From positions 1 through 46,761 of the forward strand of contig JAAYPF010000010.1 in the NCBI GenBank assembly GCA_012519925.1: 46,761 nucleotides of DNA, read 5' to 3'. The position numbers and the translations under genes were made by a program. The DNA is from Clostridiaceae bacterium. GTDB lineage: Bacteria; Bacillota; Clostridia; Acetivibrionales; Acetivibrionaceae. Positions 2,330 to 22,420 of the stretch are shown piece after piece; the stretch's first letter is position 1; every line of letters starts with the position of its first letter. The notes under the pieces were generated by a model. It did not search any database. It was not told the origin of the DNA and saw only the letters and a list, made by a program, of their open reading frames with translations.

Positions 2330-2366
2330 ATGAGATTTTCCTTCCATTGATTCTAAAAAATAACGT

Positions 2367-3341: not shown

Positions 3342-3388
3342 TCCGCCAAACTCCTTTCAAGTAATTTTACAAATTTTACATTCCCCAT

Positions 3389-4915: not shown

Positions 4916-4957
4916 TAAACGACTCCCTTTCAAACAAACTAATTAAACGTTTAGCCT

Positions 4958-6319
4958 TTATGTTTTGTTAATGATTTTATCAGACTTTTCATAGACATTA
5001 ACAGCAATAAGTATCGCTGGAAAAAACCACAGAAAAAACATATAATATAAATCTAAAGAATAAGCCATAATACTCCATGCTATCATAGCCGCTACAATAT
5101 ATATGGAATCACCTTTGCCCATTCTTAACAGCTTAATTATATAATTCTTTACTAACATAATAATATAAAATACATAAGATATTAAACTAACAACCCCTCC
5201 TGATAACAATAAGTATATATATGTATTCATGGTATCAGTTGTATCTCCTAAGATTGCTCTTAAATTACTCAAACCACTTCCCCATCCTAAGCCAAAGATC
5301 GGATTCTGATACCAAAGAGACAATGATGTTCCAACAACATAATTTCTGAAATTTGTACTTTCTACAAATGAGTTTGAAATCATGTTATCAAATATTGAAA
5401 AAATATTCGGTAATAAGAATAATAATATAGGAAATAGAATTAGTATAATAGGCTTATATTCAAGTGCAATAATAAAAACAAACACTAACGCTAATGTAAT
5501 CAATGCAGTGCGCGATGTAGTTAAAACAATCATTAGTATCATTAACATTGATACTAATCTAATCCTCTTTTTGCCTATAATATCTTTAAAAGCTCGTGTT
5601 TGGAACAAACATAATGATACAACCAATAACGTGGCTAGAAAATTTGGATCTGCAACAGTACTTCCAACTCTTAAAATATTGTATCTGTATCTAGATTCAC
5701 TAATCCATCTAGAGTAAAAAAATGTTTGACCAATTATTAATTCTATATAAGCAATTACACACATAATTAAAATCGAATAATAAAATACCTTTACTACCTC
5801 TGCACTCTTTTCAGATGCAACTCCTTGCATAGCATATGATAAAATCATAATAAAAAGTATAGTAATAAAAGTAGTTATTGGAGACCTAAAATACAAACAA
5901 CTACCAATATAATATAATAATACAACAAAATAGTACTTAATTGACACTAATGATGTACTCGTTTTTACTTTACTTCGAAGATATTTCATAAGGATTATCA
6001 TGCTCGAAATACTATGTATTATTAAAGTAAGGCTAGCTCCTAAAAAAGTATCTAGGGCAGTAACTTTAGAATTAATTAATAAAACACAAATAAATAACAA
6101 CATTGAATCATAGTTGTATTTTAACAACATCATAGATATTAAACATACTAAAAAAACACCCAGCATTATTATTCCGTTAGTACAAAAAAGAGATATTAAA
6201 ATATATAATAATGCGAAAACTACCGGCATCATATTTTTAGGTATAGTTATTTTGTTCACACCTTCTCTTCGGCAATTTGCATCATAGCTCGAATATCTTG
6301 TATAAATGTCATTTCTCAC
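4958..6319 (-). CDS. wzy: O-antigen polymerase-like protein, Wzy type
   Basis: 453 residues with about 11 hydrophobic segments and one large external loop near the C-terminus containing NPIFGLGWGSG, the kind of motif found in the Wzy/O-antigen ligase family. It probably polymerises the lipid-linked repeat units outside the membrane. Assignment rests on topology, that motif and position beside the flippase; sequence conservation in this family is low. The alternative, an O-antigen ligase, is unlikely in a Gram-positive. Confidence 0.75.
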   Translation of the reverse strand: MRNDIYTRYSSYDANCRREGVNKITIPKNMMPVVFALLYILISLFCTNGIIMLGVFLVCLISMMLLKYNYDSMLLFICVLLINSKVTALDTFLGASLTLIIHSISSMIILMKYLRSKVKTSTSLVSIKYYFVVLLYYIGSCLYFRSPITTFITILFIMILSYAMQGVASEKSAEVVKVFYYSILIMCVIAYIELIIGQTFFYSRWISESRYRYNILRVGSTVADPNFLATLLVVSLCLFQTRAFKDIIGKKRIRLVSMLMILMIVLTTSRTALITLALVFVFIIALEYKPIILILFPILLFLLPNIFSIFDNMISNSFVESTNFRNYVVGTSLSLWYQNPIFGLGWGSGLSNLRAILGDTTDTMNTYIYLLLSGGVVSLISYVFYIIMLVKNYIIKLLRMGKGDSIYIVAAMIAWSIMAYSLDLYYMFFLWFFPAILIAVNVYEKSDKIINKT

Positions 6320-6355
6320 AATATCCTCCTTTAAACCAATAACAAAAACATATTT

Positions 6356-7402
6356 TTAATTTTTTAATATATTATCAAGAAATAGTTGTGATTTCAACAA
6401 CAATTTTGTATATTTTTTTGAGTCAAGTAAGGAGTTTTCACACATATAACAGCCATTAGGAAGCATATCATATTCTATTCCAAATGATTCCAGCATACTT
6501 ATAACTCTATTTGACTTTTTATCAATAACAGTGAATCTTATATCCTTTTCATAAATTAATGAAAAGGCTGTGGCATGAAATGAATTTGTCACCACATATC
6601 TGGCATTCATAATAGCATATAAAAACTCACGTGGTCCAACATTAATTAGTAGCTTCCCTGACCTCGCAAGTTTCCTACATGTAGGGTGAATTATATATAC
6701 AGGCAATCCTGTCGAATTCTCTAGATCCTTACACTCCATATCAAGTATAGAATCCCCTTTTAATGCGTAATATAAAATATATTGATTAGGTTTTATAAAA
6801 TTGATTTTATTGGCTAACTTACTCCAAAATTGCTTTGAATGCAAAAACACTGGATCTACAACTAATTCAGAAGTAATACCTAAATCCGATTTCAAATATT
6901 CTTGTGCAGATGTTTCTCTTACTGATATCAAACTAAATTTTGATAGCATTTCAACTATATCTCTTACATTACTTTGTTCAAATCCCTCAGTTCCAATACT
7001 CGCTGCATAAGATACTTTTTTAAGTTTACTATTGTCATTGTTTATGAAATAGGTATAATCATTAAATGTAATATTTGTATTCCAAACCTGATCACTTCCA
7101 ACAATCACTATATCATATTTATCAAAATCTATCTTTTGAAAAAATGCTCCTTCTATTTCTATATAGTCTTTTAAAAACTTTACGAATTTATTATATTGAA
7201 GTATTTTAATAGGCACTTTCATAATACTCTTAACTGATTTTACTGGAACAAGTGAATATGCATTCTTTAGTCTTCTATTTGCATAATTTATTATTTCAAC
7301 GTGACTATTAAGCTTCTCTTCCAAATATTTTTTTAATGAATAAGCTTGCAATAAAGCTCCATAATTATGAGCAAATTGAAAAGTTAGTATACCTAGTTTC
7401 AT
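6356..7402 (-). CDS. Polysaccharide pyruvyl transferase family protein (copy 1)
   Basis: 348 residues. It has the family's N-terminus (GILTFQFAHNYGALLQAYSL), the central VGSDQVWN segment and the C-terminal NSFHATAFSLI motif. Family members transfer a pyruvyl group from phosphoenolpyruvate to a sugar as a ketal, adding negative charge to the polymer. It is only 2 nt downstream of the preceding glycosyltransferase. The acceptor sugar cannot be read from sequence. A second copy is at 9684 to 10790. Confidence 0.85.
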   Translation of the reverse strand: MKLGILTFQFAHNYGALLQAYSLKKYLEEKLNSHVEIINYANRRLKNAYSLVPVKSVKSIMKVPIKILQYNKFVKFLKDYIEIEGAFFQKIDFDKYDIVIVGSDQVWNTNITFNDYTYFINNDNSKLKKVSYAASIGTEGFEQSNVRDIVEMLSKFSLISVRETSAQEYLKSDLGITSELVVDPVFLHSKQFWSKLANKINFIKPNQYILYYALKGDSILDMECKDLENSTGLPVYIIHPTCRKLARSGKLLINVGPREFLYAIMNARYVVTNSFHATAFSLIYEKDIRFTVIDKKSNRVISMLESFGIEYDMLPNGCYMCENSLLDSKKYTKLLLKSQLFLDNILKN

Positions 7403-7404
7403 TT

Positions 7405-8685
7405 CTATTTTCCTTTTCTTAATTTAAATTTGATTAAATATATTAATGTTAATACTATATTTCTATATCCTATACAAACGCTATTTTTTTCATTATGAGC
7501 TTCTAATAGAGGTTCATAAAAAGCCGAAATATCAGTGTTAGGATATGACTTTTCAGGTGAGTATGTCGGATTTTCTTGGTATTTTTGTATAATATTTCTT
7601 AGAGTACTTTCATCTTTAACTGTATTGAATAAAGCTGTTTCACCATCTAAAATTATACCATTATTATAAAAACTAGTTTCCTCATATATATTACCACTTT
7701 GTTTATTAGTAATTATGAAACATCCGGCCTGACAAGCCTCATAATAAACATAGGAGTACGTTTCTAACCATGGATTCCACAATAACAATATATCTATTTC
7801 CTTCTCTCTTAAAGCTTCAACCATTGAATTTGAACCTTTTAATACATTCACAGATATATTATTTACATTATCTAATTTTTCGCTTCCTGTCCCAAAATAA
7901 AACAAATCATACGGTGATCCATTCTTCAATATAGTCTCACACAATCTTTTCCATGTATCGTAGCCCTTTGTCTTAAGCTGTGCACCGGCAAATCCAATCC
8001 TTATATTTCTATTAATAATAGGACTTCGTTGATATACACCTTCTAAACACAAATGAGGTCTTACTATAATCTTTTCTATATATTGGGGATACAATTTTCC
8101 CCAATTTTTTTTAACATTTTCAGATGGAACGATTACTCTTTTAATTTTAATAAGTAAATTATCCATAAACTTTAACATGCTATTCAAAACCACTGATGCA
8201 GCTGGATAGTAACTACAATTACTACACTTTTTTTCGCATGGAAAACTAGCACCACAATTTTTTCCATTAGAATCTATTAAAGTAATACTTTTACACACAG
8301 TATAATAATCATGAACAAAAAAATATATAGGAACATTTACTTGTTTCAAAAATTCCTCAACCTTTTCTAGTTTATGATGTAATAAATGATGAATTTGAAT
8401 GCTGTTTAATTTAATATTTCTTTTTCGTTCAATATCATTAAGTACTCCTTGCAAGTTCTTCCATTCAACAATGCCATAAAATTGATCATCAATATTAATC
8501 CCTAAATATGTTGAAGTCTTTGAACTCAAGTAACTATTATAAAACGAAAAAACTTGGATGTAATGTATATTATTTTTTTGAAATTGAAATGCTATTTCTC
8601 TCATTGCTTTTTCTGTTCCGGTACACTTTAATAAATAGTTCGAATGCGAGAATGCTAGTATATATTCCGATTTATTTTGATGCAT
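7405..8685 (-). CDS. GT4-like glycosyltransferase with a cysteine cluster
   Basis: 426 residues from the ATG at 8685, which has GGAGG 5 nt upstream; an upstream TTG is less likely. The C-terminal half has the GT-B layout: IGFAGAQLKTKGYDTW, then a nucleotide-sugar region ending ETYSYVYYEACQAGCFIIT, where the Glu lies where GT4 enzymes bind the donor. In the middle is a cluster of Cys residues (CGASFPCEKKCSNCSYYP) seen in some clostridial GT4 proteins and possibly metal-binding. Donor and acceptor are unknown. Part of the polysaccharide operon. Confidence 0.75.
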   Translation of the reverse strand: MHQNKSEYILAFSHSNYLLKCTGTEKAMREIAFQFQKNNIHYIQVFSFYNSYLSSKTSTYLGINIDDQFYGIVEWKNLQGVLNDIERKRNIKLNSIQIHHLLHHKLEKVEEFLKQVNVPIYFFVHDYYTVCKSITLIDSNGKNCGASFPCEKKCSNCSYYPAASVVLNSMLKFMDNLLIKIKRVIVPSENVKKNWGKLYPQYIEKIIVRPHLCLEGVYQRSPIINRNIRIGFAGAQLKTKGYDTWKRLCETILKNGSPYDLFYFGTGSEKLDNVNNISVNVLKGSNSMVEALREKEIDILLLWNPWLETYSYVYYEACQAGCFIITNKQSGNIYEETSFYNNGIILDGETALFNTVKDESTLRNIIQKYQENPTYSPEKSYPNTDISAFYEPLLEAHNEKNSVCIGYRNIVLTLIYLIKFKLRKGK

Positions 8686-8714
8686 TATATCCTCCAAACA
8701 CTTTTATAACAAAG

Positions 8715-9638
8715 CTATTTTTTCCCTAGTAGTACACGTTCTACTAATAATAAATTTGTTCGTATACTATTGACATATATCTCATTCTGTCTTAGTAATT
8801 TCAGTTTATATTTAAGTTTAGAATCAGAATTTGCTACTATCTCAAGTTCCTTAATTTTCTCTACACTTAGTCTGTTTTTATATAAACTAAGACAATACCT
8901 AGCAAGCGTCGCAGCAGACTCATCTGAAGTTCGTCTCATTATCTTTTTTTGCTGTTTAATAATATGTTTTATACTTAAATGTTTTTTTTGTACGCCAACT
9001 GCATTATTTCCATGTATCCTGTAAGAAAACAAAATCTTTGGAACATGAATTATTTCTCCAAATAAACATGCCATCAAGAGTACGTATACATCATGCATAG
9101 GAACATTTTTAGGTGAATTCTCTTTTAACAATTTCATTAGCTCCCAGTTAAATACCATTATACACCCAGGTATATTATTTGCCATTAATATTTTAAGCAC
9201 TGAATAATCTAACGGTTGTTTATAATTTTTTTCAAAAGTCACATTAAGATTTTTATCTACAATATTGTAATTAGATATACAGACACAAGGTTTAAAATTA
9301 TAATCATTCATTTTGCTTATAATAGTTATAGCCTTATCATCTGCCCAAAAATCATCTTGGTCACAAAAAGCATAATAATCTGTTATTGGAGCTTTATCTA
9401 TTAGATCCAAAAAACTTTTTTGAACACCTACATTATGACCAGTAATTACCTTTACTTCAAGAGGTAATTTAGATGTCAATGAATTTATCTTTTGAATAGT
9501 TCCATCTGTAGAACCATCATCCCGAACTAAAACTTTTATATCTAAATCGTCACTCACATTATTTGCTACACTTTCCAACTGTTGCTCTATATATTTCTCT
9601 CCATTATATGTAGACATTAATACAGTTAATGTTTTCAT
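8715..9638 (-). CDS. Family 2 glycosyltransferase, rhamnosyltransferase-like
   Basis: 307 residues, a GT-A fold. MSTYNGEKYIEQQLES starts the nucleotide-binding part, VRDDGSTDGT follows, and CDQDDFWADDK holds the DxD metal-binding motif. This combination is common in rhamnosyltransferases of capsule loci, and the dTDP-rhamnose genes are in the same operon, so rhamnose transfer is a fair guess. No membrane segment is evident. It probably acts at the inner face of the membrane on a lipid-linked intermediate. Confidence 0.8.
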   Translation of the reverse strand: MKTLTVLMSTYNGEKYIEQQLESVANNVSDDLDIKVLVRDDGSTDGTIQKINSLTSKLPLEVKVITGHNVGVQKSFLDLIDKAPITDYYAFCDQDDFWADDKAITIISKMNDYNFKPCVCISNYNIVDKNLNVTFEKNYKQPLDYSVLKILMANNIPGCIMVFNWELMKLLKENSPKNVPMHDVYVLLMACLFGEIIHVPKILFSYRIHGNNAVGVQKKHLSIKHIIKQQKKIMRRTSDESAATLARYCLSLYKNRLSVEKIKELEIVANSDSKLKYKLKLLRQNEIYVNSIRTNLLLVERVLLGKK

Positions 9639-9683
9639 TAATCTCCCTCACAACACTCATTAAAATAATATTCAAATAAATAG

Positions 9684-10790
9684 TTAATCACTAAACGCTT
9701 TTCGTAAATACTGATCCGTAGATTTACGATATAAGTCTAATTTCTCGTTTACATTTTTAAAATTAATTTTATTTTTAATTTTCTCAAAATCATTATAATC
9801 TGAAATCATTTGGTCTGTTAAAGAGAAATTCTCTAGTATATCTATTAAACGATCAGAAAAATTTTTAGGTGAAAAACAAAGAAACTGTTTGTTGAAATTG
9901 ATTGAAAATGCTGTTCCATGAAAAGAATCCGTTAATACATATTCAGCATCATTAAACAACGTTAACCACTCACCAACAGATGGAAAGCAAAGAGTCTTTC
10001 CACAACGCAATACATGGTCGTATCTTGTTCCAATGCGAATAATAGGTAATCCGGTAATTCTTTGAACGTTCTTAGCATATTCATCCATCCTTTTATTGGT
10101 GTTTAATTGATAAATCAATATATATTTCCCTTTTACCGGATTAGTTTCAAATAGCTTTGACCAAAAATTCTTGTCAACCACCATTGTAGGATCGAGTACA
10201 AAATCTGCTTCATATCCCATTTCATTTAATAGCTTTATTCCATAATGTTCACGTAAGGAAAGATATTTGTACTTCTTAAAATATGGCTTCATCTCTTCCA
10301 ATTGTTTTGAAGTAAATTGAGTTGTACCAAAACTAGATGCGTAAGAAATACATCTTTTATTTTTAGGTACAAACTCCAAATAATATGCTGGCAGTATTCC
10401 TTTATTAGCATTAACATTCCACACCTGATCACTACCTGTACAATATATATCAGATTCTCTTATATTATTAGTAATATCATCAAAATGATAACAGACTTCC
10501 CCACTCAATTTAACTTTTTCTTTTAAAAATGAATCACATATCGTTGCGAACTTTTTAATAGACTTTGAAATTACAGCTGTATATGTCAACTTCTTAGCAA
10601 GATTTTTGCTATTACCTAAAGTCCTCTCTATCAACCATTTTGTAAAATTTTCATCATTACTATCTTCACGTACATAGTTAACTACTTCTGTTTCAGCTCC
10701 ATATTCTTTGAATTTCTCTTGTGTAGCATATGTTTGTAACACAGATCCATAATTTCTATATCCATGTACCGTAATTAATGATATTTTCAT
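9684..10790 (-). CDS. Polysaccharide pyruvyl transferase family protein (copy 2)
   Basis: 368 residues with the same landmarks as the copy at 6356 to 7402: an N-terminal GYRNYGSVLQTYAT segment, TGSDQVWNVN in the middle and TDSFHGTAFSINF near the C-terminus. The two copies are clearly diverged, so they may act on different sugars rather than being a recent duplication. It starts 8 nt after the end of the F420-dehydrogenase-like gene, a pairing seen in other clostridial polysaccharide loci. Confidence 0.85.
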   Translation of the reverse strand: MKISLITVHGYRNYGSVLQTYATQEKFKEYGAETEVVNYVREDSNDENFTKWLIERTLGNSKNLAKKLTYTAVISKSIKKFATICDSFLKEKVKLSGEVCYHFDDITNNIRESDIYCTGSDQVWNVNANKGILPAYYLEFVPKNKRCISYASSFGTTQFTSKQLEEMKPYFKKYKYLSLREHYGIKLLNEMGYEADFVLDPTMVVDKNFWSKLFETNPVKGKYILIYQLNTNKRMDEYAKNVQRITGLPIIRIGTRYDHVLRCGKTLCFPSVGEWLTLFNDAEYVLTDSFHGTAFSINFNKQFLCFSPKNFSDRLIDILENFSLTDQMISDYNDFEKIKNKINFKNVNEKLDLYRKSTDQYLRKAFSD

Positions 10791-10798
10791 AACCTACC

Positions 10799-11812
10799 TC
10801 ACCTATTTTTTAATTTTCTATAAGTATTGATTAATGGTGTTTTTCGTATATATTTTTTTATTGAAAAAATAATTTTATATTTTAATCCATATCCTAAATA
10901 TTTTTTGACTATATCATCAAAAGAAGCTGTTTTATAATCACTCCAAAAGGAATCATATCCATTAGGTTCTTCTGTTGGTCTTTGCAAATTGTGCTGATAG
11001 TTAATGAAATTACTACAATTTATTTTTTCAATAACTACTTCATTACTTTCACTATCCATTTCATTTATTAAATGTTTACCACTTTCTGTATTCACTAAAA
11101 CTAAAGTAACTCCTTTTTTTGAAGGGAAAGATGACCTTATATTTTCAATTCCCCAAAAATCTCCAATTGTTATATCTCCTTCGCGATTCATATTAGAATA
11201 TTTGCACGAAAAACATCCTTTTGATATACTATATCTCTTCAAAAACAGTCTAGAAAAAACAGAAGTATCACTAGTATTCTTTAAACTTTTTCCATTTTCA
11301 AAACAGGCTAATGCAGGATATGCCTTCCATCCCTCTCTCTTAAAACGAAAACAATATTTCCTCAATAGCGATCCATTTTTAGCTTCTAACCACTTTTTAT
11401 AATCCCTCCAAATTATAGGTTTAGGTGTGCCATGGCAAATAATGTCCACTAAAAACAATTTTTTTCGATCAACTTTACGTATATCAAGATACTTCTTCAA
11501 ACTACTAACCTGACACGGTGTACCAGAAAACAACACTGCTGCACCTTCTTTTATCTTTGTCTCAATATCTAGATAAACCCTTTTACAATTGCTTTTTACA
11601 TATTTTGATCCTTGGAAAGCTTCGCACTCCTTTAGTGTAGAAACTCCTTTATGTATGACATCTAAATTTTCATCAAAAGTTGCCCCATAAACGTAACCTT
11701 TTTCATTTTTACATTTATTGAAAAACACTTTACAAAAGCCTATAAAAGCTGCTCCTGATGAACTTTTCATGACTTCCTCATCTAATCCTTTATAAGCATA
11801 TATTTCTCTCAT
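10799..11812 (-). CDS. F420 hydrogenase/dehydrogenase beta-subunit-like protein (second copy)
   Basis: 337 residues. It has FSGTPCQVSSLK, VDIICHGTPKP, CFSCKYSN and ITIGDFWGIE, the same order of motifs as the protein at 2367 to 3341. It begins directly with the FrhB-like part and lacks the N-terminal ferredoxin module often fused in this family. Only one separate ferredoxin-like gene is present (1814 to 2329), so the two proteins may share it. Its immediate partner is the pyruvyl transferase 8 nt downstream. The reaction is unknown. Confidence 0.75.
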   Translation of the reverse strand: MREIYAYKGLDEEVMKSSSGAAFIGFCKVFFNKCKNEKGYVYGATFDENLDVIHKGVSTLKECEAFQGSKYVKSNCKRVYLDIETKIKEGAAVLFSGTPCQVSSLKKYLDIRKVDRKKLFLVDIICHGTPKPIIWRDYKKWLEAKNGSLLRKYCFRFKREGWKAYPALACFENGKSLKNTSDTSVFSRLFLKRYSISKGCFSCKYSNMNREGDITIGDFWGIENIRSSFPSKKGVTLVLVNTESGKHLINEMDSESNEVVIEKINCSNFINYQHNLQRPTEEPNGYDSFWSDYKTASFDDIVKKYLGYGLKYKIIFSIKKYIRKTPLINTYRKLKNR

Positions 11813-11839
11813 TAATAATCACCCATCTATTCATCAATA

Positions 11840-12925
11840 TTATTGCAAATAGATATTAACCAATTTTTTTCTCTCTAATTGGATGCTATATCCTCTTTTT
11901 TCTACTTCTATACTATTCTCTGTACTTAACTCTTTCCTATCGTGTTTATTATTTATTGTTAAGTCTACAACCTCAAACCAATCATCAACAGAATTCTTTA
12001 AGTCTATTCTATAGTAAGCACTTGTCATTTGAGCCTCTTCTGGCACTTTAGATGATACACAACACGGTAATCCTGTGGCTTGTGCCTCAATTAAAACTAT
12101 CCCTAAACCTTCCCATTTTGATGGAAAAACAAAACAATCCATACCACACATAATATTTTCTATATCATTCCTTTTACCTAGAAATATAACTGAATCTGTT
12201 AATTGCAGATCATTCACTTTAGTTCTAATTTCATTTTCTAAAACTCCACCACCTACTAAAAGAAGTTTAGAATGAGGATGTTTTTTATGAAATTGAGCAA
12301 ATATATTAACAAGAAAATTGTGATTTTTTTGTTCATTAAAATGTCCAACATGTCCAAGGACAATTTCGTTTTCCAATATATTTAACTCTTTCCTAATGTT
12401 ATATCTTTTGTTTTCATTAAAAGAAAATTTACCTAGATCAATTGCATTCGTCATAACTACAAAACTATTATTTCCATACATCCATTTACCAGAATCAATA
12501 GAACATGCTAATCTATCTGTACAGCTAAAAATAAATAATGGTCGTAATATTCGATTTAACATCATATGTTCACAAGTTGTATTATGACAATGTGCAATTC
12601 TTTTTTTTATTCCATGCAAACGTGCCAAAAATAATTCTATAGCCATCAATGAACTATTACCGTGAACATGCACAACATCATAATTATTCTTAAGTATTTT
12701 ATTTAGAGTTAAATAGTATTTATATGGAGATCTCTTTTTCCCCGGAATTTCATAATATGTCAATTTTAATTCATCTAATTCATTACGGAATTGATCATGA
12801 ATTTCAAAAGCAGCATATTCAATTATAAGATTGTTATCATTTACAGCATAACAATAATTCCTTATAAATGAGACAATTCCTGTATAATCATAATGATTAG
12901 TATTAATTACTAGAACTTTTTTCAA
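11840..12925 (-). CDS. GT4 family glycosyltransferase
   Basis: 361 residues, GT-B fold. The N-terminal half has VVHVHGNSSLM and the C-terminal half has GHVGHFNEQKNH, LLVGGGVLE and FVFPSKWEGLGIVLIEAQATG, with the conserved EX7E-type ending of GT4 enzymes. Closest in pattern to EpsF/CapM-like transferases. It is part of the polysaccharide operon, 31 nt after the Alg13-like gene. Specificity is unknown. Confidence 0.85.
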   Translation of the reverse strand: MKKVLVINTNHYDYTGIVSFIRNYCYAVNDNNLIIEYAAFEIHDQFRNELDELKLTYYEIPGKKRSPYKYYLTLNKILKNNYDVVHVHGNSSLMAIELFLARLHGIKKRIAHCHNTTCEHMMLNRILRPLFIFSCTDRLACSIDSGKWMYGNNSFVVMTNAIDLGKFSFNENKRYNIRKELNILENEIVLGHVGHFNEQKNHNFLVNIFAQFHKKHPHSKLLLVGGGVLENEIRTKVNDLQLTDSVIFLGKRNDIENIMCGMDCFVFPSKWEGLGIVLIEAQATGLPCCVSSKVPEEAQMTSAYYRIDLKNSVDDWFEVVDLTINNKHDRKELSTENSIEVEKRGYSIQLERKKLVNIYLQ

Positions 12926-12956
12926 CAGATAACCTCCAAAAAACCAAATTACTTGC

Positions 12957-13445
12957 TTATTTGTTATTAATTGTATCTAAATACTCCTCTATACTCTTAA
13001 TTATTGTATTTGTGTTAGAGACATATTTACATAATTCTACATTTTCAACTTGTCTTAAACACTCACCTAAGTTTTCTAGTTCGTAACATGCAGCAATAAT
13101 ACCCATACCGTCAAACTGATTAAGTATTTGTAATTGATGGTCATCAACATGCTCTCCATATTTTGCTAATCGAGGAACTGCTACTACTTTTTTTCCAGCT
13201 TTTACAGCACCAATTATTGCTCCTGTACCTCCATGGGTAATTACAATATCACTTTTTTTCATCCAATTAGCAAATTCATCTCTATCTAAAAAATTCTTGC
13301 CCTCATAATACTTAGGTCGATATTCGCTATACCCATACTGTGCGAAAACATCTTCACAAATAAGACTTTCTTCAACTAACTTATCAATTTTTTCTAAAAG
13401 TCTATCAAATTGAAATTTTTGTGAACCTAAAGTTATAAATATCAT
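12957..13445 (-). CDS. Alg13/PssE-like glycosyltransferase subunit
   Basis: 162 residues corresponding to the C-terminal, donor-binding half of a GT-B (GT28-type) enzyme. Landmarks are IFITLGSQKFQFDRL at the start and ITHGGTGAIIGAVKAGKK, then VPRLAKYGEHVDDHQ, at the UDP-sugar site. It is the partner of the Alg14-like gene just upstream (13455). In known pairs (Alg13/Alg14, PssE/PssD, Cps14G/F) the membrane-bound partner recruits this catalytic half. The sugar added is often the second residue of the repeat unit. Confidence 0.85.
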   Translation of the reverse strand: MIFITLGSQKFQFDRLLEKIDKLVEESLICEDVFAQYGYSEYRPKYYEGKNFLDRDEFANWMKKSDIVITHGGTGAIIGAVKAGKKVVAVPRLAKYGEHVDDHQLQILNQFDGMGIIAACYELENLGECLRQVENVELCKYVSNTNTIIKSIEEYLDTINNK

Positions 13446-13454
13446 TTTTTTCTC

Positions 13455-13943
13455 CTAGTATATACCACCCAAATATATTGCTTTGGGATAGATTTCTTTC
13501 ATGCTTTCCCATTGTACATAAAACTGGTCCGCATATTTATAAAGTAATTTCCCGCTTTGTGTTGCAGATGTAATTTTTGCAAATGACTCAATGTAAATCA
13601 ATTTCTTACCAAAAGCTTTTGCAACAAGGCAAATTGGAATCATAGCCAATACCCCAGTACAAATTATGACATCTGGTCGTTCCTTCAAATATATCGCTAA
13701 AGATTTTATTGAAATCGCAATTAACTTTAAATAGCAAAGTTTTTCCTTTCTATTAACCTGCATTACATAATATGTTTTTTTTCCTTCAAGTTTTGCCTTA
13801 TATTTTGTCTTTTCAGTCATTATGAAACTATCATATTTCCCCATTAGTGGTTTCAACATCATTAATTGCTCATAATGCCCACCGGAAGATGCAGCAAAAC
13901 ATATTTTCAATTTCGATTCCTTTTCGCTCATTTTGTCAGTCAA
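13455..13943 (-). CDS. Alg14/PssD-like glycosyltransferase subunit
   Basis: About 162 residues, the N-terminal acceptor-binding half of the split enzyme completed by the gene at 12957 to 13445. It has CFAASSGGHYEQLMML near the N-terminus, a long helix (KLIAISIKSLAIYL) and DVIICTGVLAMIPICLVAKA, which fits membrane association. The start is uncertain: a TTG at 13943 or an ATG at 13931 are both possible and neither has a strong ribosome binding site. It lies about 11 nt after the UDP-glucose dehydrogenase gene. Confidence 0.82.
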   Translation of the reverse strand: MTDKMSEKESKLKICFAASSGGHYEQLMMLKPLMGKYDSFIMTEKTKYKAKLEGKKTYYVMQVNRKEKLCYLKLIAISIKSLAIYLKERPDVIICTGVLAMIPICLVAKAFGKKLIYIESFAKITSATQSGKLLYKYADQFYVQWESMKEIYPKAIYLGGIY

Positions 13944-13954
13944 CTCAACTTTCG

Positions 13955-15196
13955 TTAGTCTCTTCTAAATAAATCTCTCGTGTACACTTTACTCTCAACA
14001 TCAGCCAATTCATCACTAAATCGATTTGCAATAATAGCATCACTCATATCCTTAAATTTTTGCAAATCATTGACTACTTTACTCCCAAAGAAGGTACTGC
14101 CATTTTCCAAATTAGGCTCATAAATTACTACTTCTGCCCCCTTTGCTTTAATTCGCTTCATCACTCCCTGAATTGAACTCTGGCGGAAGTTATCACTATC
14201 TGCTTTCATAGCTAAACGGTATACACCAATTACAACCTTCTTTTCACGACTCACATCATAGCCGGTGTTTTCATCATATGAGTAATAGCCCGCTTTCTCC
14301 AACACACGGCTTGCAATAAAGTCTTTTCTGGTACGATTTGCTTCAACAATAGCATTCATAATGCTTTGTGGAACATCATTATAATTAGCCAACAATTGTT
14401 TTGTATCTTTAGGCAGACAATATCCCCCATAACCAAAAGACGGGTTATTATAGTGAGTACCAATACGGGGATCTAATCCGATTCCTTCAATAATTTGTTG
14501 TGTATTAAGACCTCTCATTTCAGCGTATGTGTCCAGCTCATTAAAGTATGCTACACGTAATGCTAGATATGTATTTGCAAAAAGCTTTACTGCTTCTGCT
14601 TCAGTTAAATCAGTAAATAGTACCGGAATATCTTTTTTAATAGCTCCTTCTCTCAAAAGATCAGCAAACTCTTTTGCTTTTATCACTAAGCGTTCATCGT
14701 CCCAAGGTGCACCTACTATTATTCTACTCGGGTAGAGGTTGTCATACAAAGCACGTCCTTCTCTTAAAAATTCAGGGCTAAATAAAATATTATTTGATCC
14801 TAACTTTTCACGAATACTTTTTGTATACCCAACAGGTACTGTAGATTTAATAACCATTATTGCGTTTGGATTTAATTTCATTACCTGTTCAATAACACTT
14901 TCTACTGAAGATGTATCAAAATAGTTTTTTACTGGATCATAATTTGTTGGTGTTGAAATTATAACAAAATCCGCCTCTTTGTATGCGCTGTCACCATCTG
15001 TTGTTGCTTTAAGATTAAGTTTATAGTTTGCTAAATATTCTTCAATTTCTTTGTCAACAATTGGTGAGACTCTATTATTTATTTTATTAACTTTTTCTTG
15101 AATAATATCTACTGCTGTAACTTGATTATGCTGTGCTAGTAGTACCGAATTTGATAATCCTACATATCCGGCTCCTGCAACTACAATATTAGACAT
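13955..15196 (-). CDS. ugd: UDP-glucose 6-dehydrogenase
   Basis: 413 residues from the ATG at 15196, preceded by GAGGTGA; a longer reading to 15244 lacks a site. NAD-binding [12 protein letters not shown] is at the N-terminus, STVPVGYT in the middle, and [14 protein letters not shown] holds the catalytic cysteine. The enzyme oxidises UDP-glucose to UDP-glucuronate, so the polymer probably contains a uronic acid. It is the first gene after the LoaP-like regulator and starts the assembly part of the operon. Confidence 0.93.
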
Positions 15197-15288
15197 AATT
15201 ACTTCACCTCGCTTGTATAATGTTAATCTTCTGTATGTAGCCATTATAAACTATATGATAAAAATTGCTCTAAATAATTAACACAAAC

Positions 15289-15825
15289 TTAATAACTACT
15301 ACACGTTACTTTATCAACAACCTCCAATGACACAGTTACAAATCTTACATCGCCCATAATCTCTATCTCAATTAAAGCTTCTTTCTTATGCCTGTTAACT
15401 TTTCTTACAACACTTTCTAAGCCCTTTAGAGGTCCTTCAAATACACGTATTATATCACCCTCAATGACACCATAAGATGCCTCAATACAATGTTCGTTAT
15501 TGCACAGATTTATCATCATATTTTTTTCGGATTCCTTCATAGAAATTTCTGTGTCAGAATACTTTAATAACCCGATAATATCGCTATAGCTGTTGATTAC
15601 AGTATTAATTTCCTTTATAAACTCTTGAGATGGTAACATAGACTCGATAAATACATAACCGGGAAACAACAATTTTATCTCTCTTTTTAAAATTCCTGCT
15701 TTTCGAAATAGTATTTCTTGCAATGGAATAAAAGGCAAAGATATCTCTTCATCTAGCTGTTTACTTAAGAACTGCTCTATTTTTCTTTCTTTCCCCGATT
15801 TTACAAACATTACATACCAATACAT
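15289..15825 (-). CDS. loaP: NusG-family antitermination protein, LoaP type
   Basis: 178 residues from the ATG at 15825 (GAGGGG 9 nt upstream). The N-terminal NGN-like domain opens with WYVMFVKSGKERKIEQFL and contains LFPGYVFIES, both typical of NusG and its paralogues. The C-terminal part has VIEGDIIRVFEGPLKGLESV, the KOW motif. Position inside a long polysaccharide operon points to LoaP, the Firmicute NusG paralogue that promotes read-through of long biosynthetic operons. It sits between the rhamnose genes and ugd, and a structured leader precedes it. General NusG is excluded by context, since nusG lies by secE and ribosomal genes. Confidence 0.82.
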   Translation of the reverse strand: MYWYVMFVKSGKERKIEQFLSKQLDEEISLPFIPLQEILFRKAGILKREIKLLFPGYVFIESMLPSQEFIKEINTVINSYSDIIGLLKYSDTEISMKESEKNMMINLCNNEHCIEASYGVIEGDIIRVFEGPLKGLESVVRKVNRHKKEALIEIEIMGDVRFVTVSLEVVDKVTCSSY

Positions 15826-15983
15826 GAACAATTACCCCTCAATACATTTTTTCAATAGGCATAGCTTCGCCCCTTCACTTATCAAACTCAATAAGCTACA
15901 ATAACTCCCACTGTATATTCCCTATCTACTGATAACGTGACCCCCCAACGATTAACAGTCCATAAGTGCCTCACAAATACTCT
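15826..15983 (-). promoter_or_regulatory. Structured RNA leader upstream of loaP
   Basis: The gap between rfbA and loaP is unusually long for this tightly packed operon. On the minus strand it holds a long interrupted hairpin (15921 to 15966) followed by two short ones: CTTAT/ATAAG at 15878 to 15895 and GGC/GCC at 15858 to 15871. No T-tract follows any of them, so they are not ordinary terminators. I infer a loading or control site for the LoaP protein encoded next. No clear sigma-A promoter is seen. Confidence 0.5.
15921..15966 (-). ncRNA. Long interrupted hairpin with G-rich loop
   Basis: Reading the minus strand, CTTAT pairs with ATAGG (one wobble), then a GG/AG internal loop, ACTG with CAGT, a T/T mismatch, TAA with TTA, a bulged T, and CGT with ACG. 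This closes a 9-nt loop TGGGGGGTC. That gives 15 pairs in four blocks over 46 nt. Regular small internal loops and a G-run in the loop look like a protein-binding RNA rather than a terminator. LoaP is known to bind an RNA hairpin in leaders of its target operons; whether this matches that element is not something I can confirm. Confidence 0.55.
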
Positions 15984-16862
15984 CTATTTATCAAATACTT
16001 CCAATAAATTAGCTACATAATTTCCATATTCATTATTTAACTTATTATCTATAATATAATTCTTCAAATGATCTCTTGTAATAAAATTATTCTTTAACGC
16101 AATTTCTTCAAGACACGCTATATAAAGGCCTTGTCTTTCCTGAATGGTTTGAACAAAGTTTGAAGCCTTAAGTAGGTCTGTATGTGTTCCTGTATCAAGC
16201 CATGCCATACCTCTCCCAAATAACTCTACTTTTAACTTTCCCTCATTTAAATACGCCATGTTTAAATCGGTTATTTCCAGTTCTCCTCTTTGAGAAGGTT
16301 TTAAGTTTTTTGCAATATTCACTACTGTATTGTCGTAAAAATATAGACCCGGAACAGCATAGTTTGATTTTGGATTCTTTGGTTTTTCCTCTATGGATAT
16401 AACATTGTTATCCTTATCAAACTCGACAACACCATAGGCTGAAGGATTTTTTACATAATACCCGAAAATTGTTGCAGCTTCTTTTCTTTCTACAGCCTTT
16501 TCCAACATTTGATCAAAGGATTGACCATAAAATATATTGTCACCTAAAATCAGTGCAACGCTATCATCGCCAATAAACTCATCACCTATTATAAAGGCTT
16601 CTGCTAGTCCTTTTGGTTCAGGTTGTACAGCATAGGAAAAACGCACTCCTAAATTACTTCCATCTCCGAGAAGTCCTTCAAATAAGGGCAAATCCCTAGG
16701 AGTAGAAATTATCAGTATTTCGCGTATTCCTGACATCATAAGTACCGACAATGGATAATAAATCATCGGTTTGTCATATATTGGTAGGAGTTGCTTTGAA
16801 ATCCCTTTTGTTATGGGATGTAGACGCGTTCCTGCTCCCCCTGCTAGTACTATACCTTTCAT
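15984..16862 (-). CDS. rfbA: Glucose-1-phosphate thymidylyltransferase
   Basis: 292 residues, the usual length. The N-terminus has [20 protein letters not shown], the nucleotide-binding and catalytic signature of Rml[11 protein letters not shown] and [11 protein letters not shown] are further family landmarks. It makes dTDP-glucose from glucose-1-phosphate and dTTP, the first step to dTDP-L-rhamnose. It is last of the four rhamnose genes in transcription order. Confidence 0.96.
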
Positions 16863-16887: not shown

Positions 16888-17982
16888 TTAAAAAACCCCG
16901 CTATTACTTTTTCCATACATTTGTTTGTAATATTCTTGATACTGCCCTGATGTAACATTTTCAATCCATTTTGTATTGTGAATGTACCACTTTATAGTCT
17001 CTACAATTCCCTGTTCAAATGCAGTCTCCGGAAGCCATCCTATCTCTGATGAAATTTTTTTAGGATCTATAGCATATCTTCTGTCATGACCTTTCCTATC
17101 TTTAACAAACTTTATAAGGTCATCGGAAATATTATTCATTCTTGGATCACTTTCCTCTAAAGTTTCCTTCACAGTTTTTATAATTGTCTTAATTATATCT
17201 ATATTTTGCCTCTCATTATGTCCACCAATATTATACACTTCACCAAGTTTACCATTATTTATAACTTGATCAATTGCAATACAATGATCTTCAACATAGA
17301 GCCAATCCCTTATGTTTTTACCGTCTCCATAGACAGGAAGTTCCTTACCGCTTAATACATTGTTAATTACTAGCGGAATTAACTTTTCAGGAAACTGAAA
17401 TCTTCCATAATTATTGCTACATCTTGTTATATTCACCGGCATTTTATAGGTATCATAATATGCTTTTACAATCATATCAGCAGCAGCTTTACTTGCAGAA
17501 TAAGGACTATGTGGGTCAATAGGAGTACTTTCAGTGAAGTATCCTTCATGTTCTAGCGAACCATACACCTCATCAGTAGATACCTGCAAAAATTTCTTAC
17601 CTGGTAAAAATGTTTCATCATCCTTTTCCCAACAGTTCTTTGCAATATTTAACAAACACTGAGTTCCTAAAACATTTGTCCTTACAAAGACTTCTGGATC
17701 TTTTATGCTCCTGTCTACATGGCTCTCTGCTGCGAAATTTACTACATAGTCTATATCATTATTCTTAAATATTTCCTCTATTCTTTCCTTATCACATATA
17801 TCAGCTTTTACAAAAGTATAATTTTTTCTATCTTCAAGCCCCTTCAAGTTTTCGAGGTTTCCTGCATATGTAAGCAAATCTACATTAATAATTCTTATAC
17901 TATCACCATACTTGTTTAACATACAGTGAATAAAATTTGAACCAATAAAACCAGCCCCACCTGTAACTAAATAAGTTTTCAT
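16888..17982 (-). CDS. rfbB: dTDP-glucose 4,6-dehydratase
   Basis: 364 residues. It has the SDR NAD-binding TGGAGFIGSNF, the catalytic STDEVYGSL and YSASKAAAD (Tyr-x3-Lys), and SHVDRSI. These are the marks of RmlB, which converts dTDP-glucose to dTDP-4-keto-6-deoxyglucose. It begins 1 nt after the rfbD stop, so the two are probably translationally coupled. Confidence 0.96.
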   Translation of the reverse strand: MKTYLVTGGAGFIGSNFIHCMLNKYGDSIRIINVDLLTYAGNLENLKGLEDRKNYTFVKADICDKERIEEIFKNNDIDYVVNFAAESHVDRSIKDPEVFVRTNVLGTQCLLNIAKNCWEKDDETFLPGKKFLQVSTDEVYGSLEHEGYFTESTPIDPHSPYSASKAAADMIVKAYYDTYKMPVNITRCSNNYGRFQFPEKLIPLVINNVLSGKELPVYGDGKNIRDWLYVEDHCIAIDQVINNGKLGEVYNIGGHNERQNIDIIKTIIKTVKETLEESDPRMNNISDDLIKFVKDRKGHDRRYAIDPKKISSEIGWLPETAFEQGIVETIKWYIHNTKWIENVTSGQYQEYYKQMYGKSNSGVF

Positions 17983-17983
17983 A

Positions 17984-18841
17984 TTATACCTGCCTTTTTA
18001 AATATATTTCTAAAGCCTCTTGCCATTCTTTAAACATAAAGTTTGACGTCATCTTGAGCATATAGTTTTCCAAAACAGAATATTTCGGTCTGGGTGTTGG
18101 ACTTGGATACTCCTCAGTTGTGCAAGGAACTACCTTTGTTGATATTCCTTTCTGACGGAATATTTCTTTTGTAAACTCATACCATGTACACTGTCCCTCA
18201 CATGTTCCGTGAAAAAGTCCATAGTTTTCAGTTTCAATCAAATATCTTATCATCCCCGAAAGTTCTTCCGTACTTGTTGGCGTTCCTCTCTGATCCCCTA
18301 CCACTTTAATTTCATCTCTTGTTTCAGAAAGTGTCAACATAGTTCTGACAAAATTCTTACCTTCTCCATAAAGCCATGCAGTCCTTATAATATAATGCTT
18401 ATCGTTAAAAAGCTTGACAAACTTCTCACCTTCAAGCTTTGTTTTGCCGTAGGCAGTTTTTGGTATAGTATCATCAAACTCCAAATAAGGTCTTGCATTA
18501 CTATCTCTTAAAATACCTGCGCCATCAAACACATAGTCTGTTGAAATATGCACTATTTTTGCATTTACTTCCTTCGATGCAATAGAAAGATTTCTTGGAC
18601 CTATTGCATTTACAGCAAACGCACTGTCAAAATCCGTTTCACAAGCATCTACATTCGTATAAGCAGCACAATTGATAATAACATCAGGATTTAATCCCTT
18701 GACCATTGAGAGGACATCCTCGAGAATTGTGATATTTATTTCCTTTAAATCGACAGCAGTAATATCATATCTACTTTTATCAAGTTGACGTATAATTTCC
18801 TTTCCTAGCTGCCCTTCTGAGCCTGTCACTATTACCTTCAT
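17984..18841 (-). CDS. rfbD: dTDP-4-dehydrorhamnose reductase
   Basis: 285 residues. VTGSEGQLGKEI is the nucleotide-binding motif, HISTDYVFDG and AYGKTKLEGE hold the catalytic residues (Tyr-x3-Lys), and RTAWLYGEG follows. This is RmlD, the last step giving dTDP-L-rhamnose. It lies between rfbC and rfbB with gaps of 15 nt and 1 nt. Confidence 0.95.
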   Translation of the reverse strand: MKVIVTGSEGQLGKEIIRQLDKSRYDITAVDLKEINITILEDVLSMVKGLNPDVIINCAAYTNVDACETDFDSAFAVNAIGPRNLSIASKEVNAKIVHISTDYVFDGAGILRDSNARPYLEFDDTIPKTAYGKTKLEGEKFVKLFNDKHYIIRTAWLYGEGKNFVRTMLTLSETRDEIKVVGDQRGTPTSTEELSGMIRYLIETENYGLFHGTCEGQCTWYEFTKEIFRQKGISTKVVPCTTEEYPSPTPRPKYSVLENYMLKMTSNFMFKEWQEALEIYLKRQV

Positions 18842-18856
18842 AGTACCCTCCCCAAA

Positions 18857-19405
18857 TTATAAGCCTGCTTCTTTTATAGTAGGCAAAATCTTATCTTTCT
18901 CAGACAATATAAACTCACAATCCATATCTGGCCACTCAATTGCGATATCACTATCATTATATATTATTCCTGCATCATACTCAGGATGGTATAGGTTAGT
19001 TGTTTTATACAAAAACTCTGTATCCTCTTCCATAGTTAGAAAGGCATGTCCGAATCCTTCTGGAATATAAAACATTGTTTTATTCTCCTCCGACAGTTCA
19101 ACTCCATACCACTTACCAAAAGTATCGCTTCCTTTTCTAAGATCTACTGCTACATCATAGACTCTTCCTTTTATAACTCTTACCAATTTTCCCTGAGGAT
19201 ATTTAGTCTGGAAATGGATACCTCTAAGAACACCTTTTTTTGATTTTGAATGGTTATCCTGAACAAATTCCATATTAAGTCCTAGTTCTTTAAATGATTC
19301 TTTATTATACGATTCCAGAAAAAATCCCCGGTTATCCCCAAAAACTTTTGAATCAATAATAACTAAGTCTTTAATTCCTGTTTGCTTAATTGAAAAATTA
19401 TTCAT
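18857..19405 (-). CDS. rfbC: dTDP-4-dehydrorhamnose 3,5-epimerase
   Basis: 182 residues. DNHSKSKKGVLRGIHFQ includes the conserved catalytic His, and FYIPEGFGHAFLTMEED and YNDSDIAIEWP are typical RmlC cupin segments. It epimerises dTDP-4-keto-6-deoxyglucose. It is the first of the rhamnose genes in transcription order, 44 nt after the BY-kinase gene. Confidence 0.95.
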   Translation of the reverse strand: MNNFSIKQTGIKDLVIIDSKVFGDNRGFFLESYNKESFKELGLNMEFVQDNHSKSKKGVLRGIHFQTKYPQGKLVRVIKGRVYDVAVDLRKGSDTFGKWYGVELSEENKTMFYIPEGFGHAFLTMEEDTEFLYKTTNLYHPEYDAGIIYNDSDIAIEWPDMDCEFILSEKDKILPTIKEAGL

Positions 19406-19449
19406 TATGCTTAAAATACCCCCTAGAATATTTTTTTATAATTTAATCA

Positions 19450-20844
19450 CTACTTATATTCGTAATTATAGTAATTGCCTCTTCCTGTATCCATTTTTGT
19501 CAAAACAGTACCTATAATGTTGGAATTAACACTTGCAAGTGCTTTCTTTGCTCTCTTTGCCATATCAATTCTTGTTTGACTACAAGCAAATACCAATATA
19601 GCTCCGTCGGTTGTACCTGCAAGGATTGCCGCATCGGTTACTTGTCCTACTGGTGGAGTATCTATTATTATTGTATCGTAATCGTCTTTCAACTTTTCCA
19701 ACAACTGTTGCATTTTATTTGAACTTAGAATTTCTGCTGGATTAGGTGGAATAGGACCACTTGGTATAACAAATAGATTTTGTATTCCCCTAAGGGTCAT
19801 TGAATTTATTTCTTTATCGTCTATATCACCCTTAATGATATTAGTTAAGCCCTTTTCATTTGCTATTCCAAAATAGTGATGCACCTTTGGTTTTCTTAAG
19901 TCTGCGTCAATGACTAGAACTTTCTTGCCTGATTTGGCAAAAGCCACTGCCACATTTACAGCTGTTACTGTTTTACCATCTCCTAAGGTAGGACTGGTGA
20001 TTACTATAGACTTCAGTTCCTTATCTACGCTCATATAATGCAAATTTGTACGAATTTCTCTGAAGGCTTCTGAAGCCGGTGCTTTTGGATCATTTTTTGT
20101 AATAAGGTTTTTGAGGTAATCCTGCTCGAGTACTTTAGGATCTTTTGCTTTTCTTTTACCTCTCTTACCCCCTTCAAATTCCGGTACTGTACCGATGACA
20201 TTCAATTCCAACTGTCTTTCTACATCTTCTGGCTTCTTAAAGGTATAATCCAGCATTTCCAATAAATATATCAACCCAGCACCTAGTGCTAAACCCACAA
20301 TACCAGCCAATCCTACATTTTTCTTTTTGCTTGGACTTACAGGGAACGTAGGCGTCTTTGCAGTATCTATAACCTTTACGTTTTTTACTTGAATTATATC
20401 CGATGCCATTTGCTTTATTACAAGGGCAAGTTCATTTACAACATCTGCCGCAAGTTGGGGGTCTGTGTCTTCATAACTTATACTGAAAATTCTTGAATCC
20501 TTTACTGTCTGAACATTTACATTCCTTTTGAACCTACCTGCATTAACACCAAGTTTTTTTTCTATACTATCGGCAACAAGATTTGATTTGAGTAATTCTC
20601 TATAGTCGTTTACAAGCTGATTATTAATCTGTATATCAGCAATGCTCAAGCTTGCCACCTTATCTGATTCTTTACCTAAGAAAAGTGTGGTATGTGCCTT
20701 ATAAACAGGCTTCATATAAAATTGAGTCACTACAAAAGCTGAACTGGTCGCTAAAATAAAACAAATCGCAATAATATACCACTTTTTTAGAAGTGTTACG
20801 AATACTTCCCTTAAGTCAATCTCAATATAATCACTTTTCCCCAT
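19450..20844 (-). CDS. Fused Wzz chain-length regulator and BY-tyrosine kinase
   Basis: 464 residues. A Wzz domain with membrane segments near residues 21 to 41 and 177 to 198 is joined to a cytosolic kinase. The kinase shows a Walker A (SPTLGDGKT, about 284 to 292), Walker A' (VIDADLRKP, about 312 to 320) and Walker B (TIIIDTPP, about 391 to 398). The C-terminus has four tyrosines in the last seven residues (YYNYEYK), the autophosphorylation tail. Such kinases control polymer length and export. In many Firmicutes the membrane modulator and kinase are two proteins (CapA/CapB); here they are one, as in Proteobacteria. The opposing phosphatase is likely the PHP protein at 21558. Confidence 0.92.
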   Translation of the reverse strand: MGKSDYIEIDLREVFVTLLKKWYIIAICFILATSSAFVVTQFYMKPVYKAHTTLFLGKESDKVASLSIADIQINNQLVNDYRELLKSNLVADSIEKKLGVNAGRFKRNVNVQTVKDSRIFSISYEDTDPQLAADVVNELALVIKQMASDIIQVKNVKVIDTAKTPTFPVSPSKKKNVGLAGIVGLALGAGLIYLLEMLDYTFKKPEDVERQLELNVIGTVPEFEGGKRGKRKAKDPKVLEQDYLKNLITKNDPKAPASEAFREIRTNLHYMSVDKELKSIVITSPTLGDGKTVTAVNVAVAFAKSGKKVLVIDADLRKPKVHHYFGIANEKGLTNIIKGDIDDKEINSMTLRGIQNLFVIPSGPIPPNPAEILSSNKMQQLLEKLKDDYDTIIIDTPPVGQVTDAAILAGTTDGAILVFACSQTRIDMAKRAKKALASVNSNIIGTVLTKMDTGRGNYYNYEYK

Positions 20845-20872
20845 ACTTTAAAATCCCCTTTTCAAAAATTGA

Positions 20873-21481
20873 TTAAACTTCGGATAATAAATATGAATAC
20901 CTGTAGAAGAGCTCTTTTGCACGTTCATAGTCTCCCCCAAGTGTATTTCTTAAATATGATTTCAGCTCTGTCATTCCTTCGTCATCTAGACCTTCATCCA
21001 TTAGACCTTGTATATATGCTATATTGACCGATGAATATATCCTGCGAAAATCTGCAAGGTCCTCATCATCAATCTCATCTCTATGTTCTTTGATCTTTCT
21101 TTCTACCCAGCTCACTGATTCAGCATTCTTTGTTGCCTTTGGAGTGGGCTCCTTTTTGTCACCTTCAGACAATGTCGGTTTTGGTGTTGCTTTCCCCTCT
21201 TGAGTGACTTCTACATTTTGTGACTTATTAGTAGGACTTGGAGTCCTAAGAATAACATCGGATTTGTACTTCGAGGTTGGCGTAGCCAATGGTGTAGCAA
21301 TGTCCGAATTATGAGTCACAACAGTGTCAATCACTGCAACAGGTGTTATAATCCCGGGTGTTGAATTGCCAGCTGTACCTTTTGTAGCACCATCTTTATC
21401 TTGTTGAGTAAGAAGGGGTAATAAAACTCCTGCACCTACAGTCAGTAACATAGCTAAAAAAACAACAATCCCTTTTTTCAT
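20873..21481 (-). CDS. Secreted or membrane-anchored Thr/Pro-rich protein of the polysaccharide operon
   Basis: 202 residues from the ATG at 21481, which has AAGGAG upstream. The N-terminus is basic then hydrophobic (MKKGIVVFLAMLLTVGAGVL), a signal peptide or membrane anchor. It is followed by about 100 residues rich in Thr, Pro and Ser with repeated TP pairs. The C-terminal 70 residues are acidic and probably helical (EIDDEDLADFRRIY). I do not recognise the C-terminal domain. Its place between the phosphatase and the kinase suggests a role at the cell surface in polymer assembly or attachment, but that is a guess from context. Confidence 0.6.
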   Translation of the reverse strand: MKKGIVVFLAMLLTVGAGVLLPLLTQQDKDGATKGTAGNSTPGIITPVAVIDTVVTHNSDIATPLATPTSKYKSDVILRTPSPTNKSQNVEVTQEGKATPKPTLSEGDKKEPTPKATKNAESVSWVERKIKEHRDEIDDEDLADFRRIYSSVNIAYIQGLMDEGLDDEGMTELKSYLRNTLGGDYERAKELFYRYSYLLSEV

Positions 21482-21557
21482 ACTTGTACTCCTTCTTTTA
21501 TACAAAAACAATATTAATATATTTGCAAATTGTTGTCAATTAATATAATGCACTTTC

Positions 21558-22346
21558 TTACATCTTTAGACGTAATTTTCTTAGTATTCCTACCATTAGT
21601 AGTCGCTTTTTAGCCGAACACATACTTAGAACATCCTCGTTTTCCAGTACTCGCTGAGGATTGGTATACATAATTCTTTCAGCGTTTTCAAAACCACAAA
21701 GATCAGTGATTTTCTTTTCAATTTCCTGTTTATCTGACAGTATTCTGTTCAGGCTGTGGGAATCTGTGCCTACAATATGTACCATCCCAGCTTTCAATAA
21801 CTCGTAGGCTGCTCTTTTTGCTCTTTTCCCATGAGCACCTATAATACTCTCAGAATTAATCTGCAATAGAACTCCCTTGTCAACGAGCTCTTTTAACAGC
21901 TTACTTTTCCTATATTCTAAACAGTATCGCTCAGGATGTGCAATAATAGGAGTAAAACCTTCTAATTGCATGGAAAATAAAAGTTCTGACATATACTTAG
22001 GAATTGTCTCGAAAGGAAATTCAATTAGTATGTATTTAGAGTCGTTTAACGAAAGTATCTCATTGTTCTTTATTCTTTCAATGATATCATAAGAAGCATA
22101 AACTTCCATGCCCGAATAAATCTTAAGCTTTATTTCTTCTCTATCAATTTCTTGTTGAAGAAGTCTTACCTTTTCCCTTATTTCCTCAGGTGTCGGAACA
22201 TAGTCATCTCCGCTAATAAAATGAGGCGTAGCTATAATTTTCTCTATACCTTTCTTCTGAAGCTCCCTCACTAATACCATCGATTGCTCAAGACTCTTTG
22301 GACCGTCATCTATTCCATATAATATATGACAATGAATATCGACCAT
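21558..22346 (-). CDS. PHP-family protein-tyrosine phosphatase (CpsB/YwqE type)
   Basis: 262 residues from the ATG at 22346, preceded by GGGAAGG. Metal-binding motifs of the PHP fold are visible: MVDIHCHILYGIDDGPKS at the N-terminus, IATPHF, then IIAHPERY and GTDSHSLNR. This matches CpsB/Wzb-like phosphatases of Gram-positive capsule loci, which remove phosphate from the tyrosine tail of the BY-kinase. It is the first gene of the operon, right behind a good sigma-A promoter. Confidence 0.9.
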   Translation of the reverse strand: MVDIHCHILYGIDDGPKSLEQSMVLVRELQKKGIEKIIATPHFISGDDYVPTPEEIREKVRLLQQEIDREEIKLKIYSGMEVYASYDIIERIKNNEILSLNDSKYILIEFPFETIPKYMSELLFSMQLEGFTPIIAHPERYCLEYRKSKLLKELVDKGVLLQINSESIIGAHGKRAKRAAYELLKAGMVHIVGTDSHSLNRILSDKQEIEKKITDLCGFENAERIMYTNPQRVLENEDVLSMCSAKKRLLMVGILRKLRLKM

Positions 22347-22391
22347 TAAAATACCTTCCCCTGTCTGCCTAAAATATAGTGTATTAATCAT

Positions 22392-22420
22392 ATTATACAG
22401 CTTGGACACACAAAATGCAA
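22392..22420 (-). promoter_or_regulatory. Sigma-A-type promoter of the polysaccharide operon
   Basis: On the minus strand TTGCAT (22415 to 22420) and a perfect TATAAT (22392 to 22397) are 17 nt apart. The start codon of the phosphatase gene is about 45 nt downstream, leaving a short leader without obvious secondary structure. This probably drives the operon running to 1814. Confidence 0.7.

Follow-up and report, generated by a model that had tools for sequence, protein, structure and literature searches.

The window, the whole stretch of 46,761 nucleotides analysed here (Clostridiaceae bacterium, contig JAAYPF010000010.1), carries a polysaccharide operon on its minus strand. In the middle of the operon lies a gene that the initial annotation had assigned to a LoaP-type regulator, an assignment confirmed by a match of its product to NCBIfam NF033641 at 172.9 bits, above the cut-off of 125; the nearest solved relative of this product is 8f5g. 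Between the end of rfbA at 15984 and the ATG of loaP at 15825 there is a gap of 158 nucleotides, while all remaining gaps in the operon are below 50 nucleotides in the ORF table, and the loaP leader is thus indeed a long one among short ones. The operon is made up as follows.

16888..22409, minus strand: upstream part of the operon, with CpsB/CapC, an ORF without a Pfam match, Wzz/tyrosine kinase, rfbC, rfbD and rfbB
15984..16862, minus strand: rfbA, directly upstream of the gap (TIGR01207, 476 bits)
15289..15825, minus strand: loaP, a NusG-paralogue antiterminator (NF033641)
1814..15244, minus strand: downstream part, with ugd, pssD, pssE, GT4, FrhB, pyruvyl transferases, GT2, a Wzy-like gene and others, presumed to be under LoaP control

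A search of 15850-16400 gave no terminator-like site, in agreement with the earlier description of leader hairpins without a following T-tract, and none was seen between the RNA element described below and the start of loaP. The 13 kb downstream of loaP likewise contained no clear intrinsic terminator (five sites on both strands, versus 3.9 expected). A promoter search just upstream gave a single weak minus-strand match, 9/12, at 16082-16053. At the far end of the operon, a strong 14-pair terminator-like hairpin (22526-22495, minus strand) separates an S-layer gene from the polysaccharide genes.

When folded as a single sequence, the leader had a minimum free energy of -28.2 kcal/mol with a z-score of +0.63, and 149 of 200 shuffled sequences folded equally well. 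Rfam scans of the window matched no family. Because the energy of the single sequence is unremarkable and Rfam gave no match, proof of structure had to be comparative. Within the genus, the family and the order, loaP leaders proved to share an element of ~115-120 nucleotides. We aligned 22 such sequences, taken from the regions upstream of loaP genes in these three ranks; 92.2% of cells were paired, and both-sided changes were present in 11 of the 24 pairs. The covariation score was reached by none of 500 shuffles, and pairing fell to 29-49% when partners were slid by 1-3 columns. The compensating changes that the initial annotation had proposed to look for in relatives are therefore present. 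A covariance model of the same structure, R2, was constructed from 15 sequences belonging to other families only. R2 found the window at 15971-15851 on the minus strand (109.1 bits, E = 6.7e-31) and nothing above 18.7 bits in the rest of the genome; with a single strong copy in this genome, the element probably serves this operon alone. When every pair of columns was scanned in the alignment of 53 elements, the same pairs ranked highest, a result that is supporting rather than independent since the alignment was fitted to the model. The view that the leader is an ordinary gap with chance hairpins, to which the z-score of +0.63 lends itself, has next to no probability in the face of the covariation, and is refuted by the match of a model built from other families. 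At the level of sequence comparison, these data confirm that the gap encodes a real, conserved two-hairpin RNA associated with LoaP, with the following parts.

15851..15971, minus strand: whole LoaP-associated RNA element of ~120 nucleotides (R2 match at exactly these positions, 109.1 bits)
15921..15966, minus strand: 5′ hairpin P1/P2, likely LoaP-binding, from covariation and from a core shared by L115, L155 and L161, whose loops are of UNCG type
15911..15921, minus strand: conserved linker GGAAUAUACAG (alignments A3 and A6)
15877..15896, minus strand: second hairpin P3, GCUUAU...AUAAGU, with covariation from C-G to U-A and from A-U to G-C
15860..15871, minus strand: conserved 12-mer GGCGAAGCTATG, a candidate consensus pause, with T11 at 15861 and G12 at 15860 (53-element alignment)

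The P1/P2 core reads UAAUCG-U-UG[GGGGGU]CA-CG-UUA, with a C and a U bulged. The consensus helix has 18 pairs, of which 15 form in the window, consistent with the interrupted 15-pair hairpin reported earlier at 15921-15966. Two smaller hairpins had also been described; one, at 15896-15877, corresponds to P3 and is supported by covariation, while the other, a candidate around GGGGCGAAGCUAUGCC, lacks such support. Pairing of UAGC, before P3, with GCUA in the 12-mer would be compatible with the structure, but double-sided covariation was absent and we do not claim it. The hairpin first described in the leader is present, but the element is longer, and adds the second hairpin and the conserved 12-mer.

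To relate the element to LoaP, 80 related genomes were compared. It occurs in 29 of the 46 genomes with a LoaP or LoaP-like gene and in none of the 34 without one (Fisher p = 4e-10, a value that overstates independence, as the sampled genomes are mutually related). A total of 56 copies were found. Forty adjoin loaP, with 32 directly before it (22 of which had served to train R1, a model built from loaP leaders), four directly after it and four divergent from it; the other 16 lie elsewhere. This adjacency and co-occurrence bear out the original suggestion of a structured RNA tied to LoaP. Among the solo copies inspected, L100-L103 are followed by NRPS genes, L098 and L099 by genes for biotin-dependent carboxylases, and L096, L104 and L105 by polysaccharide genes; product functions for L098-L103 were read off translated sequences and not from a family search, and the genomes concerned carry loaP elsewhere. 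At one locus (L072:1501-1703) the element is in tandem before loaP, a full copy being followed by a shortened one that comprises the 3′ half only. Broken loaP genes with several stops (G037:C132, G044:C101 and G029:C42) retain elements in their vicinity. Viral contigs contained no exact match to the pattern.

The place of the element in the operon is also retained in relatives. The polysaccharide region of G001 has two elements (L104 and L015), one before loaP in the conserved order rfbA-element-loaP and a second at a distance of 17 kb, before ugd. G002 has the element directly after rfbA, and assembly genes come next, with no loaP at that place. Retention of the element after rfbA in both genomes supports a conserved control boundary there, as judged from gene order. 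The initial annotation had envisaged a split of the operon into a precursor part and an assembly part; synteny in G001 and G002 upholds the boundary after rfbA, but the division by gene role is imperfect, with CpsB and Wzz/tyrosine kinase upstream and ugd, a precursor gene, as the first gene after loaP. These arrangements also bear on two other explanations. Regulation of loaP expression only, through translation control, a riboswitch or an autoregulatory leader, would suit the majority of copies, which directly precede loaP. We consider it very unlikely, given the copies that lie after loaP, divergently from it, or far off before NRPS, polysaccharide and carboxylase genes, and given the element after rfbA in G002 with no loaP there. 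A structure for mRNA processing or 3′-end stabilization, dividing the rfb and loaP transcripts, would fit a site between genes of differing role, but would need neither conserved loops and a conserved 12-mer nor leaders outside the rfb context, and we regard this reading as highly improbable.

We compared the element with the site described for LoaP in B. velezensis, where LoaP is bound by a UNCG-type hairpin present in both the dfn and the mln leader and, in a dfn reporter, required for antitermination; a pause between hairpin and terminator in the dfn leader strengthens LoaP action (PMC12691694). The 158-nucleotide leader contains no TNCG, so the window lacks a UNCG tetraloop, and a search of the minus strand over the initial 26 kb of the window found no UNCG hairpin. 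The core UAAUCG-N-NG[loop]CN-CG-UUA nevertheless recurs with other loops, the loop being UUGCGA in G013 and in G002, which belongs to the same genus, and UUUCGG in L161, a leader that faces a PKS-type cluster beside an annotated loaP (CP079755). The shared core suggests that the window hairpin, with its GGGGGU loop, is a loop-swapped form of the known LoaP hairpin type. L115, L155 and L161 have the window core with UUCG or UGCG loops, and divergently placed copies have UACG, UUCG or UGCG. The sequence of L161 (CP079755.1, 102341-114844) is labelled as a Klebsiella grimontii plasmid, while its loaP and PKS-type genes look Bacillota-like, and the label may be wrong. UNCG-type elements keep a hairpin of unrelated sequence at the place of P3. 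R1 scores several of them, and the GGGGGU and UNCG types are therefore most simply taken as one class. The link drawn earlier to LoaP-loading hairpins thus holds for the hairpin class, through the shared core, but not for the loop, which is not UNCG. Like the dfn and mln hairpins, the element lies in the leader of a long biosynthetic operon and has LoaP as its partner, and dfn also has a pause after the hairpin. In contrast to them (dfn being compared by description), it has GGGGGU in place of UNCG, sits mid-operon before loaP itself, includes an extra conserved hairpin and the 12-mer, and has no adjoining terminator.

It is also conceivable that the RNA acts on polymerase alone, in the manner of EAR or phage put RNAs, with LoaP a mere neighbour. 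EAR (epsC RNA, RF01735) is likewise a mid-operon RNA of polysaccharide operons, acting in antitermination within the eps operons of Bacillus, and it is not known to need LoaP. This precedent, together with the length of the RNA and its conserved unpaired parts, favours such action. The element is, however, absent from all 34 genomes that lack a LoaP-like gene, the RF01735 model had no match in the Rfam scans of the window, and intermediates connect the element to the published LoaP hairpin type; we therefore judge action on polymerase alone to be very unlikely.

Searches with the Rfam family RAGATH-28 (RF03052) in the 80 relatives and 391 class genomes gave six loci (L063, L064, L065, L156, L157 and L158). 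At all six, a same-strand LoaP-like gene ends 3-79 nucleotides upstream, and the simplest reading is accordingly that RAGATH-28 is a LoaP-associated RNA related to the window element. The layout is the same, with a UUCG-loop hairpin, a GGAACAUA-like linker, a second hairpin and a 3′ GGCGAAGC, whereas the loop and stems of the window differ, and the RF03052 model matched neither the window nor its genome. We found no function assigned to RAGATH-28, and no mention of it in the paper text searched. More distant LoaP genes in the sample are followed, within ~90-360 nucleotides, by a hairpin with a UUCG or UCCG loop, a GGxxCAUA linker, another hairpin and GGCGAAGC.

The 3′ 12-mer is strongly conserved among the 53 elements (G1 in 50, G2 in 52, T9 in 53 and T11 in 51); position 12 is G in 39 elements and A in a further 13. 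The window sequence GGCGAAGCTATG fits the ops-like pattern G-11 G-10 ... Y-1 G+1, of which all four positions are kept in 35/53 elements; a GCGNAGC pattern is kept in 43/53. At E. coli ops (GGCGGTAGCGTG), U11 is the pause position of polymerase, and a small hairpin in the non-template DNA serves to recruit RfaH (PMC5995543). The 12-mer resembles this system in its length of 12 nucleotides, its G1G2...T11G12, the proposed recruitment of a NusG paralogue and a possible small non-template DNA hairpin. It differs from ops in its central bases (CGAAGCTA versus CGGTAGCG) and in the additional use of an RNA hairpin by LoaP, and the pause here is a candidate. The very high stability of GCGNAGC as a DNA mini-hairpin is taken from published work (PMC4686876); folding of the 12-mer as DNA with nearest-neighbour parameters gave no hairpin. 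In the PKS-type leader L161, GG(N5)ACTATG (GGTAGAACTATG) is retained and the GNA loop is absent; this points to pausing rather than a DNA hairpin as the conserved function. By analogy with ops, then, the 12-mer is possibly a pause and loading site.

Taken together, a LoaP-related function of the element is well supported by association, that is, by its conserved structure, its linkage to LoaP, its homology to the UNCG class and its place after rfbA, from which we infer binding by this LoaP, pausing, antitermination and regulation. We think it highly probable that the leader is a nascent-RNA loading site at which LoaP would join polymerase in mid-operon. Two findings count against this, namely the loop, which differs from the UNCG of characterised LoaP sites, and the failure to find a strong intrinsic terminator in the downstream part of the operon. 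As polymerase crosses the rfbA-loaP gap, LoaP would recognize the 5′ hairpin; the second hairpin would then form, and polymerase would probably pause at GGCGAAGCTATG, ~60 nucleotides past the first hairpin, giving LoaP time to engage. LoaP would remain on polymerase for processive transcription of loaP and of the ~13 kb of polysaccharide genes behind it, making the element a positive feedback site in cis. A broader proposal, which we advance tentatively and with more doubt than confidence, is that LoaP loading sites in Clostridia are bipartite, combining an RNA hairpin recognized by LoaP with an ops-like pause ~60 nucleotides downstream whose non-template strand would fold a GCGNAGC mini-hairpin. 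RfaH-type and LoaP-type recruitment would then share a DNA signal, and RAGATH-28 would be one branch of these sites.

The element provides a signature of sequence and structure for finding LoaP-controlled operons in Clostridia, and the Rfam family RAGATH-28 gains a protein partner by association. It further indicates that evolution can replace the UNCG loop at LoaP sites, and the 12-mer suggests where polymerase may pause for loading. The operon itself is proposed to be a naturally occurring example of transcription with a processivity switch inside an operon.
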